Below, one piece after another: positions 26,363 through 55,189 of a DNA stretch of 64,000 nucleotides (positions within the stretch are counted from its first letter, which is position 1; each line of letters opens with the position of its first letter). The stretch is from a virus. Location: positions 28,053-92,052 of the IMG/VR virus record IMGVR_UViG_3300027833_001310; one strand, 5' to 3'. The notes beneath the pieces are model-generated. The model saw only the letters and a list, made by a program, of their open reading frames with translations. It made no database searches and was not told the DNA's origin. The translations under genes and the position numbers were made by a program.

Positions 26363-29300
26363 TAGTTACTACTGTCTACAATTGATGTATTTGCAAATGG
26401 ATTTTCATTTGTTGTTACAAGATAGTTTGTCTTTGCGTGTAGTCTTAACCCGGAACCTTCTAAGTCTTTAACGTCTTGTATAAATGTAAACGTCTGCTTT
26501 TTAAGATCTAAGAAAAGTATTCCTTTAAGATTACCACCACCTCTTTTTGCTGCAAGATAGTTATTAACATTAGACTGTGCTATGGCTTGCATTGCACCGG
26601 TAATGTTATTTTGTGCTAAGTTTTGTGCTATCTGGTTGCCAGCATTAGGTATTTCTGTAAAGATATTTGAAATAATATCTGCTATTTCTTTTTCTGCTTC
26701 AGGTACTAACTTCAAGAAAGCTGCAACATGATTTTGTTGCATACCTGATTTGACTCTTAACACTGCACCCTGTGCTTCTAGTTCTTTAAACTTCTCATCA
26801 TACTTTGTAAAGAATGCTGTTACTTTAGACTTGTATGAATCTGATACAGTAACTTGTCTGTCATTAAATCTAGCAGAATTTTTTCTTGTTGTTTTTAATT
26901 CAATTGGTTGACCGTCAATCATTAAGTCACCTTTGCCATCGTCAGCACCTGATGATGCTCCCATGCCGCCAATTCTCTGTGACAATACTGAAAGTGCAAA
27001 CTCACCTGGGCCAATACCATACTGTACAACTTCATTTAAGTCGTTAACTAATTCTGTTATGTGCTCGTTGCCTTCCATTCCGTAACCAACAAATATCTCA
27101 GACATAGTATCAGTAGATGTAGACAACAATGTATCAACTCTAACTAATTTATCTCCCTTCCAATCTATGAAAAGTTTTGCTCTTTCTGCTGGCGTCATTT
27201 CTATACTTGCAATAATCTTTGCAATTTGTTTAATTGCTTTCTTAACATCCTCATCAGGTACTTCACCTAATTGGCTGCTTAAACTTTGTATTTTACCACC
27301 TACGCCCATATCATCTAACAGTTGTTCAATGTAGTTAACTAATTTATTAGTTTTTTCATCATCTGGTAAGTCGGCTAATTTTTTGATCAGCTCTGATTTA
27401 CTTTCAGTTATTCCTGCTTTCTTTTTAGTTTCTGGGTGTACTTTGTTTTGTACAAAACCTTTGAATATAGTACGCAAATCAGTGTCTGGTCCACCGCCAC
27501 TAGCTGCTTCTCTGAATGCTCTGATCATACTAGGATCTGGTACTACAAAGTATGCTTCCATTTGCGATTTTAAATCACTAGCAAGTAAAGGAACATTTAA
27601 TAACTGTTTTATTTTCTTTACAGGTGAGTTGTCTGGTACAGCACCTTCTGTATATTTTGCTGCTCTGCCTGATCCTGACTTGTTAGGATGTTCAAATCCT
27701 TTGCCTTTCTTTTTCTTTTTACCAGGCGTACCGTAAGTAGTTAATAATGCAGCCATATCTTGTTCTGCTTCAATAGTTTCATTTAATTTTTTCTTAGATA
27801 CTATTAGTGCTTCGTTTATCTTCGTAGCATCAACTTTACTAACTATTTCTAACTGTTTTTTAAATGGTAATTTGTTAAAATTCTCAAACATGTTATTACT
27901 CTCTTCTATATCACTAAATCTTATATTCATTTCTTGCGCCATGTATTCTCTTTCTGATGCATCAGTTTCTTGGTGTGTTCCTACTATGAATGGACTCTTT
28001 TCCCCTGCAAGGCTAAATGCGTCTGGATTGAAATCTCTATCTCTGTAAGGTAGGAAGCCATGCTTCTTGCTAAAAGTATCTATTTTTACTTTAGCATCTA
28101 ATGTCTGTTCTTGATATCTTTCGGCTTTTTGTTTTCTATGAATTATTAAATCTTTTATTCTTTTTATCTTTTCATCTGTTTCGGTATCTTCGTTAGTTCT
28201 ACTACTTCCCTGTGCATGTGCAGGGTGATCAGCATCTATTAGGTCTGTAGTATCAACCCCGCCTGCTTTGTATGCTGATACTATCGATGATACTTCATCC
28301 CACTGTACAGGATTGCCACCGTTTTCCTTGTTGTACACTAATGCATTTAGAACATCTTGTTTTGCATTATTACTTGTTTCTAAGTTGTTAATCCATCTTG
28401 CTAGTTTTACAGCATTAACTCTTGGATCAGCCATGAAGTGACCGAATCCAGTGAACCACATTTTTTTATAGAGAGGAAAATCATTTTCCGCCATCTCAAT
28501 TGCTGCTTGATTACTAAAAGTAGATGGGTCATTATCTGACGCATCTGAGGTACCTGTTGTGCCTAGTTGCTCTAATTCTTTTTCATAGTCGGCAACCATT
28601 TTAAGTTCGCCTTGAGCATCAATCATTCCTTCATTGTAATCATATAATGCTCTGTATACTTCATTATGTTCATCGCGACTAATAGCTTTAAAATCTTCTG
28701 CTTTAAACTTTTTACCCGGAGGTGTCTTTATTGGAGCTCCTGATATAAGTTTGTTACCCATTTCTGTTTGGAGCCAATTGTAGTATGGTACTGGTAAAAA
28801 CAATGCATCGGTGCCGTTGTACTTAACAGTAAATTCTGGTGTTGGTGCTTTTGCTACCTTAACTTTGAATGCGTTATTAAACGCATCAGCAAACTTTGTC
28901 ATGTTATCGTGGTAAGGTGACCCACCAATATTTAACATAGGTACATATTGTTTACTTGCTAAAAATTCTTTATAAAGAGATTCTGGTGTGAATCCAAAAT
29001 CTTTCATTGCTTGTCTAAAGCCTGCTACTTGTTGCACTTTAACAGGATTACGATTTTTCCCTGTTGCTATAGAACTTAGTAGATAACCAAAAGCAGTAAG
29101 ACTGTAATCACGAGCACGATCATTCCAACTCTCTTCTTCTTTGATAATACTTTCTTCTGCGTTCTCTCTTTTAGATCTTGCAAGTGCATTGTATGCTGTA
29201 GCAAGAGCGTCTATAGCGTCGGTGTAATGATTTTTGCCCACCACACTTTTAAATGCATCTACTACTTTCTTATCAGTATTATCTGGGTCAATTCTACTAG

Positions 29301-47972: not shown

Positions 47973-48499
47973 TCGTTTACTTCCAAGACGCTAAATGTTT
48001 CCACTCCGCAATAGTCTGTTAGTTTAGCAGTTCCTTGCAAGAAAGTCAAGTCTATTATACAGGCATAATTTATATCATATCCACCTGCTTGTTTAATTAA
48101 GTCTACTATAGCATTAGCAGTTCCACCTGTGGCACTTACATCGTCTATGATGCAAATTCTATCAGTGTATGCAAACTCAACACTGTCTAGCATTTCAAGT
48201 GTCTCGCTACCGTACTCTAATGTGTATGAAAACGACTTTACTTTGCCTGGTAATTTACCTGGCTTACGAACAATGTGCAAAGGAATACCTAATGCTAGTG
48301 CAACAGGTGCTCCCCATATAAATCCTCTGGCATCTGGTGCAACAATTTGTGTTGTTTTAATACTTCTGCAATACGCAACCATCTTATCCACAGTGTACTT
48401 AAACGCTTTAGGATCTTCAAGTATGCTTGATATATCTTTAAACATGACTCCCTCAATTGGGAAGTCAGGTACAGTACGGAGTATTTTATTTAGGTCCAT
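47969..48499 (-). CDS. apt: Adenine phosphoribosyltransferase
   Basis: 176 residues. FPIEGVMFKDISSILEDPKAF matches the APRT N-terminal hood. CIIDDVSATGGTANAIVDL is the PRPP-binding loop. APDARGFIWGAPVALALG is the canonical ARGF block. It converts adenine plus PRPP into AMP. Between metK and the nucleosidase-like gene, it would salvage adenine released from SAH/MTA. Confidence 0.93.
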   Translation of the reverse strand: MDLNKILRTVPDFPIEGVMFKDISSILEDPKAFKYTVDKMVAYCRSIKTTQIVAPDARGFIWGAPVALALGIPLHIVRKPGKLPGKVKSFSYTLEYGSETLEMLDSVEFAYTDRICIIDDVSATGGTANAIVDLIKQAGGYDINYACIIDLTFLQGTAKLTDYCGVETFSVLEVNE

Positions 48500-49589
48500 A
48501 AAGATCTAGTTGCTCCCATGGTAGATCTGGTTTGCCAAAGTGTCCGTAGTTTGTTGTTTTTGTCAAGTCTAAATTAAATAAATCAAACTTGTCTATAATA
48601 CCCTTAGGTGTTAAATCAACATGTTGCTTTAGCTCTTCTGCTAAGTCTTCTCTAACTTTGCCGTCTGCATAAACATACACACTAGTTGGTTCAACAACAC
48701 CGATAGCATAACTTAGTTGTACGGTGCAGTTTTCTGCTTTGCCTGATGCTACAATGTTCTTTGCCAAATAGCGAGCCATATATGCTGCTGATCTGTCGAC
48801 TTTAGTGCAGTCTTTACCTGAAAAAGCACCGCCGCCATGTGGAGCGTACCCGCCATAAGTATCAACAATAATTTTTCGTCCAGTAAGTCCAGTATCTCCA
48901 TCCGGTCCTCCAATTACAAATCTGCCTGTAGGATTGATTAAAAACTCTGTGTTTTTTAGATCTACATCGCTTAATTCTTCTGTTATAATTTGTTCAACTC
49001 TATCACGCACCATTTGTGTGCTTACATCATCACTGTGTTGAGTACTACATACAATAGTATTAATACCAACTGGCTTTCCAACTGCATCGTATTGCATTGT
49101 TACTTGACTTTTACTATCAGGCCCAATCCACTCTTCACCGTTTCGTCTTTCTGCCGCTAGTCTTTTTAGAATCTTATGACTGTAATAAATTGCACTAGGC
49201 ATTAAGTCTGGTGTTTCGTTACAAGCATAACCAAACATAAGTCCTTGGTCACCTGCACCAAAATCATCTGTGCCTAAAGCAATATCTGCACTTTGACCAT
49301 GTAGTTTGTTTACAACTGTTAGGTTAGCCCAATGAAATCCTTCTTGTTCATATCCAATATTCTTAACTACTTGCCTAACGATTGAATCAATTGTGTCGTC
49401 ATCTATTGGAATATCTCTTTTGTATTCGCCTGCTACGATAACGCTATTAGTAGTTACTAGAGTTTCTACTGCCGCTCTGTGATTGATATTACCGTTAATG
49501 ATTGCATTAGCGATAGTATCTGAAATCAAGTCAGATATTTTATCTGGGTGTCCTTCGCTAACGCTTTCGCTAGTAAATTGATAAGACAT
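48486..49589 (-). CDS. metK: S-adenosylmethionine synthase
   Basis: 367 residues. FTSESVSEGHPDKISDLISD is the MAT N-terminal motif. GAGDQGLMFGYA is the ATP/Met-binding GAGDQG loop. GGGAFSGKD is the P-loop-like motif III. It makes SAM from ATP and methionine. It has a strong Shine-Dalgarno (AGGAGA) and a hairpin in its leader. It is part of a replication operon headed by the uvsW promoter. Confidence 0.97.
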   Translation of the reverse strand: MSYQFTSESVSEGHPDKISDLISDTIANAIINGNINHRAAVETLVTTNSVIVAGEYKRDIPIDDDTIDSIVRQVVKNIGYEQEGFHWANLTVVNKLHGQSADIALGTDDFGAGDQGLMFGYACNETPDLMPSAIYYSHKILKRLAAERRNGEEWIGPDSKSQVTMQYDAVGKPVGINTIVCSTQHSDDVSTQMVRDRVEQIITEELSDVDLKNTEFLINPTGRFVIGGPDGDTGLTGRKIIVDTYGGYAPHGGGAFSGKDCTKVDRSAAYMARYLAKNIVASGKAENCTVQLSYAIGVVEPTSVYVYADGKVREDLAEELKQHVDLTPKGIIDKFDLFNLDLTKTTNYGHFGKPDLPWEQLDLYGPK

Positions 49590-50457: not shown

Positions 50458-50951
50458 AATAGTTCTCCAAAATCTATATCTTTAATTTTGTTTGCTTCTT
50501 TAACAAACATTGCACATTTAGGTTCCTCTTTATCTTCCAGAGGAATTACCAATATATGTCCGTTTTTAAGTCTTGGGAAATACCATTTGACATCTTGGTA
50601 TACGTTGGTAATCTGTATTTCTTCAGTGTCCGGAATGCCGTTACGCATTGGATTAAACACTGGTGTAACAAAGCCTCTATTGTTTAGACTTGCTAGTGGG
50701 ATAACTTCTAAACTACCAAATGATTCATCAGTAGTTAAGATGCTCCAATCCATAGGCATCTGTAATTGAAACTCGCCTATTTGTAAACATATTGCTGGAG
50801 CATGAAAGCTCTCTAAAAAGATAAGGGGTAAGAAAAAGTAGTCTTTGTATTCAGGGTCACTGGTATCAAAAACGCAATAACGCAAATCATCAATTTCATC
50901 CGGTACTGTATCTAATTCGTAAACTTTATTCTCAACTGTTAATATTTTCAT
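50454..50951 (-). CDS. Conserved protein after UvsW, 165 aa
   Basis: MKILTVENKVYELDTVPDEIDDLRYCVFDTSDPEYKDYFFLPLIFLESFH. A mixed alpha/beta protein of a family found in the same position in marine T4-like phages. No motif recognised. Overlaps uvsW by 4 bases. Confidence 0.7.
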   Translation of the reverse strand: MKILTVENKVYELDTVPDEIDDLRYCVFDTSDPEYKDYFFLPLIFLESFHAPAICLQIGEFQLQMPMDWSILTTDESFGSLEVIPLASLNNRGFVTPVFNPMRNGIPDTEEIQITNVYQDVKWYFPRLKNGHILVIPLEDKEEPKCAMFVKEANKIKDIDFGELL

Positions 50952-52405
50952 TTGTATTCTACCTTGGTTACATTGTACCTAAATTTTTGTTCTGCGTAAA
51001 ACTGCTTTCTTTTTGTTAAGTGTCTCTTACTATACTTTAGATTACTCGTTAAGTCAATCACTTTCAGATAATCTTTATCTTCTGCTTTACGAATTCCTCT
51101 TCCGATGCTTTGTATTACCCTTACAAAACTTTTACCTGGCTCTAAAAGAACTAAGTTAAAAATTCTGGGTATGTTAATACCTACCGATGCTACACCATAT
51201 GTAGCAACAATTACCTTGTTATCCATTTCTGAAACTTCTGCATATTCTTCTTGTCTGTCAGTGGTCTTCATCTTACCACTAACAAATGCCCAGTCCTCAT
51301 TTCTTTCTGCTAACATTTCACCTGTTGCAATACGGTCAATCAATACTAGTGTATTGCCGTTTACTGCAAGTCCGTTAATGATAGAACTAATTTGATCTAT
51401 GCGTTGTGGGTCTGTTACAAGCCATTTTAGTTCTTGTGCATATCCTTGGAAGCCTAATGTGCCGTCTTGTAATTGAAATATATCTATGTCTAGGTCTGCT
51501 AGTACACCCATGTCTTGTAATTCTTTACTGCTTAGTTCGCTTACAACAGGTCCTAGACAGCATGTACATGCTACTGCTTCGTGTTCGTCTTTGGGTATAG
51601 TTCCTGTTAGTCCCCAACGTACAGGTACGTTAGAGAACACACTGCTTAGAAGGTCTCTAAGTACGTCTGCTTTTGCTTTGTGTACTTCGTCTACCATTAC
51701 ACATACTACACCATCTAAGAACTGTTCAATGTCAATAGGTGCTTCACCTTTCTTTGACTTCTTAGATAGCATGGATAAACTTTGCCAAGTACAAATAGTA
51801 TGGGTCTTAGTATACTCTTTTCTATCTCCAAACAGTACACCGCAGTCTAACCCTAAATTCTTGTAATCTCTTTCTGTCTGCACTACCAAGTCTTTGTTTG
51901 GTACGATTACGATTGTGCGTCCATACTTCTCACACTTGTGACTTAGTACGGCTGTAATAAGTGTCTTACCTGCTCCTGTTGCTACTTGTTGTAAGCATTG
52001 TGGATTCTGTAAGAACTTATTAATAACTGTTACTTGATAATCACGCAATATAACTGGCATGCCTTCTGCTGGATGTCCTTTAGGCCATGCTGTCTGGTCG
52101 TAATCAGTTTCGGTTACATTATCAAATGATAATTGAATAGGTTGCCTTTGATCGTCTACTACTACTTCATAACCAGCTTCGGTTACTAGTGGCAATAAAC
52201 GATCAAGCAAATTTAGATACGTTCTTCCGCCGACATCACAGAATCTTACACAGCCATCCCAACGGCCTAACTTGTAGGCTGGCATATGAAATGCATAGGG
52301 TAAAAAATACTTGGCTGCTTCTGAGATCTTTCTGCGAGTCTTTACGTCAAGTCCTACGAACTTAACGTTTACTTCATCTCTTATTTCTAAAGTTACTTTA
52401 GGCAT
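50948..52405 (-). CDS. uvsW: DNA/RNA helicase UvsW
   Basis: 485 residues. GAGKTLITAVL (Walker A), VMVDEVHKAKAD (DExH box), WGLTGTIPKDEH (motif III), TYGVASVGINIPRI and QSIGRGIRKAEDKD (motif VI) make a superfamily 2 helicase; the N-terminal winged-helix-like region is typical of T4 UvsW. It unwinds branched DNA and R-loops in recombination. The early promoter TATAAT lies 5 bases before the ATG with no Shine-Dalgarno. Confidence 0.95.
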   Translation of the reverse strand: MPKVTLEIRDEVNVKFVGLDVKTRRKISEAAKYFLPYAFHMPAYKLGRWDGCVRFCDVGGRTYLNLLDRLLPLVTEAGYEVVVDDQRQPIQLSFDNVTETDYDQTAWPKGHPAEGMPVILRDYQVTVINKFLQNPQCLQQVATGAGKTLITAVLSHKCEKYGRTIVIVPNKDLVVQTERDYKNLGLDCGVLFGDRKEYTKTHTICTWQSLSMLSKKSKKGEAPIDIEQFLDGVVCVMVDEVHKAKADVLRDLLSSVFSNVPVRWGLTGTIPKDEHEAVACTCCLGPVVSELSSKELQDMGVLADLDIDIFQLQDGTLGFQGYAQELKWLVTDPQRIDQISSIINGLAVNGNTLVLIDRIATGEMLAERNEDWAFVSGKMKTTDRQEEYAEVSEMDNKVIVATYGVASVGINIPRIFNLVLLEPGKSFVRVIQSIGRGIRKAEDKDYLKVIDLTSNLKYSKRHLTKRKQFYAEQKFRYNVTKVEYK

Positions 52406-52410
52406 ACGCT

Positions 52411-52439
52411 ATTATAGTCTACTTGTAAGTTAATGTCAA
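52411..52439 (-). promoter_or_regulatory. Early promoter for uvsW operon, predicted leaderless
   Basis: TTGACA (52439-52434), a 17-base spacer and TATAAT (52416-52411), inside the 3' end of the TonB-receptor gene. The hexamer ends 5 bases before the uvsW ATG at 52405. Confidence 0.92.
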
Positions 52440-53996
52440 GAAGAACTTACGTCCTCCTGCGTCATATCCTGGTAATACTTCGACAACATTATCTAGTACA
52501 TCCTGTACTGTAAATGCTAATCCAAGTTTATCAGATAGTTGCTTTCTCATTACAAAGTCAATTGACTTAATGTCATCTAACGATGTCCCATCATACGGTC
52601 CAGGGTCTCTGTCAAACTGTGCTGTATAACTTAGTTCAGCAGATGTTTCACCGAAACTAGCAAAGTACGAAATTCGACCTTTGTACTTAGGTACCCTAGG
52701 TTGATCAGTATCTGTATATCCAGCCATCACACTTAAACTACCATATGGTACAGCATACATATCCATGTATCTAATACCTCTAGTTTCATATTCGCCTGTG
52801 TTAACATACTGTCTAGAACTTCCGTCATAGTCAATGTTTTCTTCAAAATCATATGCAAAGTATGAAAGACCTAAGTAACCAATTTCAAAACCTAATCCTT
52901 CTTCAGGATCTAAGCCTAGATTTGGTTGCACCCAGGAGTCGCCATATTGTTGATACAGTGTAGGGTTACGATAACTTGTACTAATGTTAGCAAAGAAACC
53001 TTTATTGTTATCGAATCCGAGTCTATAAACTCTTGCATCTGCACTTACTCGAGTACCAAACTGCAACTGGTTGTTATATGTAATAACAGCATAGCCACTA
53101 ACATCATCCTGTGACTCACCAATGTAGTTCTCTTTATCGTATGTAATACCTGAAACAATAGTTGTTACAGGATTAAGATTAAAAGTGTCTCTGGCATCAA
53201 AGTAATAACGATCTGCATCGCTCGAGTATGTGCTTACATCTTCGGTAAAGTATTCACTTTCGGTCTTGTTATAGCCAATTGTTATGTGGTCGTTCCTTAC
53301 ACTAATGTCAGTCTTTGTACCGTCTTGTACGCAATCATTCGACTGTGAAAAAGATGCTGTATAACAATTATCATAATCGTATTCATAATCTACATGTGAC
53401 ATTGCCACAGTAAATCCTAATACATCTCTAACTGATTTGATAGTAGTGTTTTTATAATCATCTTCTTCAGTGTTATCGTTACGAACACTTCCGTTACTTA
53501 CATCAAAACTAGAAATACTAATAGAGTCAAACAATGCTACATTTAGTAACTGATGGTCCTCTCCTAATCTTACTACTCCTTGATTTTCAATAGTGTCGTT
53601 GATAAACACTGTTCCGCCTAGGCTACCAGAGCCATAAAGAACACTGTTAGGTCCAGAAACAATGTTAACTGTTTCTAATCCGCTTACAACATCATGTGCA
53701 AAGTCATACCAACCGGAGCCGGAATCATTTGCAGGCACACCATTCCTATACACAGTAGTGTGTGTAGTTTGAGTACCACGTTCATTAAAGCCAGCAAAGC
53801 CTCCGTATCCACCAGCAGTGAATGACATAGCCGGCATAACAATTTCAATTATTGCCATATCGTCTGATACATCCGTGGTGTCTACTTGACTTACTGATCC
53901 AACAACTACAATCTCTTCAATGAGATTAGAGTCTTCTGCTAATACTAAGTTACTTGTTGTTCCAAGTAAAAGAAGCAGTGTTACTAGGTTTTTCAT
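52419..53996 (-). CDS. TonB-dependent outer membrane receptor
   Basis: 525 residues from ATG 53996 after AAGGAGATATA. A signal peptide (MKNLVTLLLLLGTTSNLVLA) is followed by LIEEIVVVGS, a TonB-box-like segment. The plug contains TTVYRNGVPANDSGSG and VSGLETVNIVSGPNSVLYGSGSLGGTV, as in BtuB/other receptors. The rest is beta-barrel strands, ending in GRKFFLTLTYK with the C-terminal aromatic. It is smaller than typical receptors (about 600-700 aa). In bacteria such proteins import vitamin B12, iron or sugars. No T4-type phage role is known to me. Confidence 0.93.
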   Translation of the reverse strand: MKNLVTLLLLLGTTSNLVLAEDSNLIEEIVVVGSVSQVDTTDVSDDMAIIEIVMPAMSFTAGGYGGFAGFNERGTQTTHTTVYRNGVPANDSGSGWYDFAHDVVSGLETVNIVSGPNSVLYGSGSLGGTVFINDTIENQGVVRLGEDHQLLNVALFDSISISSFDVSNGSVRNDNTEEDDYKNTTIKSVRDVLGFTVAMSHVDYEYDYDNCYTASFSQSNDCVQDGTKTDISVRNDHITIGYNKTESEYFTEDVSTYSSDADRYYFDARDTFNLNPVTTIVSGITYDKENYIGESQDDVSGYAVITYNNQLQFGTRVSADARVYRLGFDNNKGFFANISTSYRNPTLYQQYGDSWVQPNLGLDPEEGLGFEIGYLGLSYFAYDFEENIDYDGSSRQYVNTGEYETRGIRYMDMYAVPYGSLSVMAGYTDTDQPRVPKYKGRISYFASFGETSAELSYTAQFDRDPGPYDGTSLDDIKSIDFVMRKQLSDKLGLAFTVQDVLDNVVEVLPGYDAGGRKFFLTLTYK

Positions 53997-54026
53997 TATA
54001 TCTCCTTGTTTTATGTTAATGAAAAA

Positions 54027-54054
54027 GTACACTCCCCAAAATTAGGGAGTGTAC
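54027..54054 (-). terminator. Strong terminator ahead of the receptor gene
   Basis: A perfect 10 bp stem, GTACACTCCC/GGGAGTGTAC, is followed by TTTTT on the minus strand. It lies 35 bases after the AAA+ gene's stop and 31 bases before the receptor start, so the receptor appears insulated from upstream transcription. Confidence 0.9.
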
Positions 54055-54088
54055 CAGGGTGAAGCGCCTAGGCTACTGTGGGAGTATT

Positions 54089-55120
54089 TTAAAATCCCAA
54101 ACGCTTCATACAAGTGCTCTCGGCCAATCCTTTCCAGGTGTCCGGAGACATTTGTTTTAAGTCAGCTATTTTAAGTACCATTCTTAATGATATCTCTCTA
54201 AGCCTACTTGACTTTTCATGCATAAAGTCTACGACTTCTGCATTGCCTTCTTCGCCAAACTTGTAGTCGTCTAACATACCGTCTCCAACAATCTGATGGA
54301 TTCTAAGAAAACGATCGTTAACACTATCCATCTCCAAGTCCATGTAGTGACATCTTGACATAAGTGCCGCTAAGTGGTCTTGAATCTTCTTGCTACGAAC
54401 ATTTTCAAAGTTAACGTTAGTAATAAAAATTACACCACCTGAGAACTCAAACCTATCTGGAATGCCTTCTCTTCGTAATGCAACTGATTCTGACTTCCAA
54501 CTAATTGTACGCTTCTTACCTGAGTCTAGTACTGCCTTCAACATGTTCAAGCATACTTCATCAAACAAGATACTGTCACAGTCATCAAACACAAGGATAT
54601 CACCTTTTGCTGAATTGTTAAACAGTGTCTGGTACAGACCAATTGGGGTCATTGAACCTTTTACTACTTCTGTTCTCGGTGGACGACCAGCGAGTTTAGT
54701 TTCTGCATCATACATATCGATGATACTTTCAACACCAAATGACTTACCAACTCCTGGAGGGCCACTTACTATAAGACCTCTAACAACACCGTTTGCTACA
54801 GCATCTGTCATTTGGTCTAGAATAGCAAAACGCTCTCTAATTCTAGTCATTGCCTGCTCGTCAGTTTCTTTAGGCTTAGCCTTAGTCTCTGGTGCAGTTT
54901 CAACAAGTTTCTCGCCTTCAGCGTCTGCTAAAGGTTCAACACTTGCTAGTGTTGGTACTACAACACGAATTGAAGTACGCTCTGATCCTAATAATGCTGA
55001 TGCATCTACAGTCACAAAGTATCCTTTCTTTCCTTGTTGAGTTGGTTTAACCAAAGGAAAGACTCCTTCGATTGGTTGGTTACGGTATACGCCGTTTTCT
55101 ATCTTTACAAAGTTACTCAT
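54089..55120 (-). CDS. AAA+ ATPase of unknown role
   Basis: 343 residues from ATG 55120 after GGGAGG. GLIVSGPPGVGKSFG (Walker A, near 125), DILVFDDCDS (Walker B), FITNVNFENV (sensor 1) and a SRCHYMDLEMD (arginine-finger-like) region form an AAA+ module with a 90-residue N-terminal domain. It is not gp44-like by motif. It may act in replication or packaging. It has its own early promoter. Confidence 0.8.
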   Translation of the reverse strand: MSNFVKIENGVYRNQPIEGVFPLVKPTQQGKKGYFVTVDASALLGSERTSIRVVVPTLASVEPLADAEGEKLVETAPETKAKPKETDEQAMTRIRERFAILDQMTDAVANGVVRGLIVSGPPGVGKSFGVESIIDMYDAETKLAGRPPRTEVVKGSMTPIGLYQTLFNNSAKGDILVFDDCDSILFDEVCLNMLKAVLDSGKKRTISWKSESVALRREGIPDRFEFSGGVIFITNVNFENVRSKKIQDHLAALMSRCHYMDLEMDSVNDRFLRIHQIVGDGMLDDYKFGEEGNAEVVDFMHEKSSRLREISLRMVLKIADLKQMSPDTWKGLAESTCMKRLGF

Positions 55121-55160
55121 ATCTAGCCCTCCCACAGGCATTAATTTAAACAATACAGTT

Positions 55161-55189
55161 ATTATACAGTACTAGCCAGCTCATGTCAA
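55161..55189 (-). promoter_or_regulatory. Early promoter for the AAA+ ATPase gene
   Basis: TTGACA (55189-55184), a 17-base spacer and TATAAT (55166-55161). The -35 overlaps the stop codon of the 49-aa gene. Confidence 0.92.

Follow-up and report, generated by a model that had tools for sequence, protein, structure and literature searches.

A near-core, BtuB-branch TonB-dependent receptor of marine jumbo phages that may import cobalamin

We identified, in a 64,000-nucleotide stretch of viral DNA (the window; positions 28,053 to 92,052 of IMG/VR record IMGVR_UViG_3300027833_001310), a gene whose product is strongly supported as a TonB-dependent receptor (TBDR). The receptor fold and TonB box, the conservation of the plug and outer surface, the BtuB-type L2 and L3 residues, purifying selection and a near-core distribution were established by computation; we infer the ligand, role and benefit. 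The gene may well encode a virus-specific, TonB-dependent transporter of the BtuB branch through which the infected cell takes up cobalamin or a related corrinoid; to this reading we give about even weight.

The gene starts at an ATG at position 53996, with an in-frame GTG at 54032 as an alternative start, and its stop codon ends at 52419 (Table 1). The first-pass annotation, made from the sequence alone, had called the product a TonB-dependent receptor, and this identity is upheld by the signal peptide, the TonB box, the Plug match, a 22-strand model and BtuB as the top fold. By sequence motif, the N-termini are likewise hydrophobic and signal-like in nearly every full-length relative, and the TonB box pattern [IV]EE[IV]xV.. 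is kept across nearly all of them. The Plug model PF07715 matches the window protein with E=1.7e-11 and 45 bits (gathering cut-off 23.9), and all 38 of the 38 aligned relatives match it at E<=0.01. The proposed HMM search was thus borne out for the plug and not for the barrel, as the window protein lies below the reach of the Pfam barrel model, which only 3 of the 38 relatives match. Structure prediction, also proposed at that stage, gave the barrel: an AlphaFold model with the family alignment as input (pLDDT 85, pTM 0.84) contains 22 barrel strands, counted from its strand list, and only its N-terminus and part of L2 have low pLDDT. A Foldseek search of the PDB placed BtuB structures at the top for this model (E=3.8e-23, TM 0.78), and E. 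coli BtuB was the best sequence match of the family profile among solved structures (E=1.7e-22). We infer an outer-membrane location and TonB coupling for the phage protein.

Table 1. Coordinates of the receptor gene, its parts and its surroundings in the window
Feature	Position	Strand	Basis or remark
TonB-dependent receptor gene (TBDR), BtuB branch, 525 aa	52419..53996	-	ORF, domain, profile and fold matches
Signal peptide-like N-terminus, residues 1-20, MKNLVTLLLLLGTTSNLVLA	53937..53996	-	sequence reading
TonB box IEEIVVVG, residues 26-33	53898..53921	-	sequence motif
Plug domain match, residues 52-129	53610..53843	-	Pfam model aligned from position 31 onward: short N-terminal plug
22-strand beta-barrel, residues 139-524	52425..53582	-	strand list of AlphaFold model
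Extracellular loop L2 motif DNTEEDDYKN, residues 174-183	53448..53477	-	E177 = BtuB D193, D179 = BtuB D195
Extracellular loop L3 YD....C...C, residues 208-222	53331..53375	-	Y208/D209 = BtuB Y229/D230
Ribosome-binding site AAGGAGAT of TBDR	54000..54007	-	sequence reading
AAA ATPase (phrog_1250), conserved upstream neighbour	54089..55153	-	
UvsW-type helicase, conserved downstream neighbour	50948..52405	-	
Intrinsic terminator between AAA gene and TBDR	54026..54055	-	
Sigma-70 promoter of uvsW, perfect TTGACA-17-TATAAT	52411..52439	-	-35 within last TBDR codons
Stem-loop, CUCCCAC in loop, spanning AAA gene 3' end	54060..54108	-	

Several comparisons place the receptor in the BtuB branch. TIGR01779 (TonB-B12) is the best full-length NCBIfam family profile; it spans residues 61-525 and is matched by 34 of the 38 relatives. 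Using hhalign, the TBDR family profile aligns over nearly the whole BtuB-like alignment, with ~21% identity. The window protein scores far under the BtuB equivalog cut-offs (54.3 vs 599.7 bits for TIGR01779; 42.3 vs 836 for PRK10641), and therefore we do not file it as BtuB; we class it as a BtuB-branch receptor whose action is probably like that of BtuB. Four loop residues, E177, D179, Y208 and D209, are invariant in the 38 relatives and align to D193, D195, Y229 and D230 of BtuB; the match to the BtuB metal site covers these four, with equivalents of BtuB D179 and D241 not established. In the BtuB structures, the four BtuB residues bind calcium and help hold cobalamin. D174 and N175 of L2 are invariant as well, as are the L3 cysteines C211 and C222, which may form a disulfide. 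CirA and FepA are without the BtuB-type L2 and L3 residues. The E/D-x-D-x-Y-x-N and Y-D patterns of the phage receptors agree with those of bacterial BtuB-like proteins, and E/D-x-D-G-Y-x-N and YD motifs are found too in bacterial TBDRs of unknown ligand.

Membership in the BtuB branch does not fix the ligand, and a lesser possibility is that the receptor imports another scarce compound, such as haem, some organic compound or a complex of iron, copper or zinc. Iron supply would be sensible, as the class Ia ribonucleotide reductase (RNR) encoded in the window needs iron, and haem/haemoglobin receptor models match 26 of the 38 relatives over short stretches (the plug, in the window protein). The full-length match, however, is to BtuB and not to haem or siderophore receptors, and the invariance of the BtuB-type L2 and L3 residues also argues against another ligand.

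The genes around the receptor were examined for a use of B12. The RNR of the window is class Ia and not B12-dependent, which rules out, for the window, that B12 is imported to serve an RNR; a candidate in two relatives (L063 and L064) was rejected likewise, its best match being PRK09102, a model for an RNR alpha subunit that carries no B12-dependence label. Rfam matched only tRNA in the window and eight related loci, with no cobalamin riboswitch among the matches. Some relatives (L055 and others), but not the window's record, encode radical SAM proteins of the B12-binding kind; these neighbours form a weak link to B12, because the DxHxxG motif is absent. In L055, the gene directly after the receptor (L055:9557-11005) encodes a radical SAM protein in which one domain resembles a B12-binding domain; next come genes of phrog_459 and of phrog_249, the latter CobS-like (porphyrin biosynthesis). 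In L076, a CobS-like AAA ATPase near the receptor (L076:12410-13600; TIGR01650 E=4.4e-21) matches cyanophage CobS at about 52-54%. The AAA neighbour in the window was ruled out as CobS, since it belongs to phrog_1250.

Conservation within the receptor is concentrated in the plug core and extracellular loops L2, L3, L7, L9 and L11, and the periplasmic turns are variable. The mean majority per column of the phage TBDR alignment is 0.62 in the extracellular loops vs 0.34 in the periplasmic turns (p=4e-6); a small bacterial BtuB-like set has a weaker contrast (0.49 vs 0.38). A conserved extracellular face points to a constant outside ligand and argues against loops diversifying under attack. The dN/dS of the receptor is 0.13-0.25, and most neighbour-gene comparisons give roughly 0.05-0.15; the receptor is clearly under purifying selection, yet evolves faster than its neighbours. 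In two close relatives (L012 and L013), it is 58% identical to that of the window amid neighbours that are mostly 92-100% identical (uvsW 98%, uvsX 98%), and its dS is 1.7 vs mostly 0.05-0.3 nearby (metK 0.6). Such divergence amid near-identical neighbours indicates replacement of a whole-gene allele, and further allele-swap pairs exist among close relatives. The swapped alleles differ more in the strands and periplasmic turns than in the extracellular loops. Some relatives carry insertions of up to ~65 aa after residues 294 and 391 (9 and 14 of 38 sequences, respectively).

These patterns bear on three roles proposed in the first-pass annotation, namely nutrient import, masking or replacement of a receptor used by other phages, and a block to superinfection. 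Nutrient import fits best, given the conserved extracellular loops and plug and the BtuB-type motif, and the loop diversification of a decoy was not seen. Superinfection exclusion or receptor replacement is, in our assessment, unlikely. The phage protein would then replace a host receptor that is shut down or used by competitors, or would occupy TonB against TonB-dependent phages and colicins. BtuB-type receptors do serve known phages such as BF23, the allele swaps resemble those expected under frequency-dependent selection, and competition for TonB would need the box and plug alone, both of which are conserved. Nevertheless, competitors bind at the extracellular loops, and these rank with the most strongly conserved parts of the protein and differ less between swapped alleles than the strands and periplasmic turns do. 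Still more doubtful is a leaky gate, in which a shortened plug leaves the channel partly open and lowers the barrier for small-solute uptake or lysis. The plug is indeed ~16 residues shorter than that of BtuB near the N-terminus, as judged by the hhalign gap against the BtuB-like set; however, the plug core and TonB box are strongly conserved, which would be needless in a pore that is always open, and the limited extent of the low-pLDDT segments also speaks against it.

The receptor is widespread among uncultured viruses. Relatives numbered 82 in an initial scan of viral sequences and at least 271 IMG/VR stretches once the scan was guided by a profile; 80 loci per scan were retained, and most share the AAA-receptor-uvsW position. 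We also seeded a scan with uvsW, which introduces no bias toward receptor-bearing loci. Within the same marine jumbo-phage lineage, the receptor lies directly upstream of uvsW in 71 of 77 informative loci and is missing from six. AAA and uvsW are adjacent, without the receptor, in L314, L320 and L321, which represent natural empty sites. The other three, L326-L328, have a rearranged region, and a search of the 89-kb contig of L327 found no receptor. The earlier description of the gene as an inserted module therefore holds in so far as three empty sites exist, but with 71 of 77 loci occupied the receptor is near-core at the AAA-uvsW site and no one-off insert. The same gene order in dozens of independent contigs of up to 340 kb rules out an assembly chimera with host DNA, which had been raised as a possible artefact; the window itself comes from a virus contig of 92 kb that is probably incomplete.

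A T4-type setting had also been assumed, and it gives way here. The TerL of the window is 57% identical to that of Pseudomonas phage PA5oct, and its UvsW 54% to PA5oct/Paride-type Pseudomonas jumbo phages; by these two proteins, the lineage is PA5oct/Paride-like rather than classical T4. Two further phage lineages, which lack the other genes of the window, carry the receptor too (L055; L060-L064, L069 and L076). None of the cultured-phage records searched carries it. The lone match, a 3-kb record labelled as Salmonella phage, was rejected as probable host DNA, since an E. coli BtuB query matches it at 90%.

A comparison with bacterial receptors, suggested at the outset, separated the two groups: in the tree, 39 phage receptors form one clade (SH-aLRT support 100, stem 1.58 changes per site) that is well separated from the 43 bacterial TBDRs sampled. 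This tree came from a fast search and has long branches, so its root position and the nearest bacterial group are provisional. A pattern scan of genome contigs found no bacterial relative of the phage receptor, and the best bacterial family-profile score is ~110 bits vs roughly 660-790 for complete phage members. A recent host origin is thus unsupported, given the separate phage clade, the lack of bacterial nesting and the low bacterial profile scores. The MetK of the window (48486-49589, minus strand) matches a SAR86 single-cell genome at 70% vs 58% for the next gammaproteobacterium, and Flavobacteriales and Marinimicrobia records reach up to 65% identity; MetK may point to a SAR86-like host.

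In the window, uvsX lies beyond the AAA ATPase upstream and metK (SAM synthetase) beyond uvsW downstream. This replication and metabolism setting, with no tail module, together with the signal peptide and TonB box, makes it very improbable that the product is, instead of a membrane transporter, a virion or adsorption protein, a reading with an annotation precedent in Polarivirus skadi (PMC10504331).

Both transcription signals reported earlier were recovered, the terminator flanking the receptor and the perfect uvsW promoter inside its 3' end. A hairpin at the terminator site recurs in many relatives, with differing sequence. In the window, the interval from the terminator to the start of the receptor gene holds no promoter-like site, and transcription of the gene would thus depend on terminator read-through or on a promoter type outside the scan; many relatives of another branch carry a strong sigma-70 promoter, TTGACA-N17-TATAAT or a close form, directly upstream of the receptor. 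The TATAAT of the uvsW promoter ends ~5 bases ahead of the uvsW ATG (52405-52439, minus strand), so that transcripts from there would be leaderless or nearly so, and the AAA ATPase gene is likewise immediately preceded by a perfect TTGACA-17-TATAAT (55161-55189, minus strand). Additionally, a stem-loop with CUCCCAC or a close sequence in its loop lies at or just after the AAA 3' end in 53 of 65 loci (for example L066, L067, L072 and L314). Its stem sequence varies with matching arms (GTGTTCGAA/TTCGAACAC, GTGTTCAAA/TTTGAACAC and GTTTAGA/TCTAAAC), the median stem has 9 pairs vs 6 at control positions, and it is present in two loci without the receptor (L314 and L321). It is possibly a regulatory or RNA-processing element.

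We propose the following model for corrinoid import. The receptor would be expressed early or middle in infection, exported by host Sec and inserted into the outer membrane by host BAM. Host TonB-ExbBD would open it through its TonB box; no phage-encoded TonB was found in the 12 phage records searched, so host TonB would be needed. The receptor would then, most likely, import cobalamin or a related corrinoid. A plausible use is methionine and SAM synthesis in the infected cell, because the phage carries metK; alternatively, the corrinoid could serve further host enzymes that depend on B12, since infection by a jumbo phage is long. The data suggest that the phage receptor keeps the infected cell supplied with a scarce nutrient.

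Taken together, there is perhaps an even chance that giant marine phages possess their own long-held family of B12-type transporters, near-core in the replication region, apart from bacterial receptors and with exchanged alleles. Phage metabolic genes usually encode soluble enzymes or inner-membrane or periplasmic parts, and B12 is scarce in the ocean. If true, an outer-membrane TonB receptor kept across a lineage would mean that the virus controls the infected cell's uptake from seawater, and a B12 importer encoded by a virus would tie viruses into the traffic of vitamins. A phage-made surface receptor also raises a testable question, its effect on the entry of competing phages.

Within the literature collection searched, no paper on this receptor family was found, and two reports concern other phage receptors. 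The marine megaphage Mar_Mega_1 encodes a SusC-type TBDR, reported as an individual auxiliary gene (PMC9723777). Among viral structures, the top match to our model is a SusC (BFVD A0A8D9FQQ5, 'uncultured marine phage') and is probably this protein. It shares with our receptor its occurrence in a very large marine phage, but is of SusC type, 805 aa long and ~10% identical in the fold alignment, and belongs to another family. In the pelagiphage Polarivirus skadi, a TBDR-annotated gene is flanked by tail tube and capsid genes and was taken by the authors as a clue to adsorption (PMC10504331); it shares the TBDR name and a marine phage, and is set apart by its genomic position as described. Neither report describes a lineage-wide BtuB-branch family. 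phrog_5687 is a weak profile match (residues 69-299, E=1.9e-7) with 760 positions and partial coverage only.

Among the closest known systems is BtuB of E. coli (TIGR01779; PDB 1NQE/1NQG/1NQH and 2GSK). Both proteins have a 22-strand barrel with a plug, a TonB box, the L2 D/E-x-D-x-Y/F-x-N and L3 Y-D residues and a C-terminal GY..GR, and their profiles align at full length. The phage receptor differs from BtuB in its length (525 aa vs 614 aa), its shorter plug and the lack of a detected riboswitch, and, unlike BtuB, it carries an invariant cysteine pair around L3 and the plug motif GWYDFxHD, is encoded by phages and forms a separate clade.
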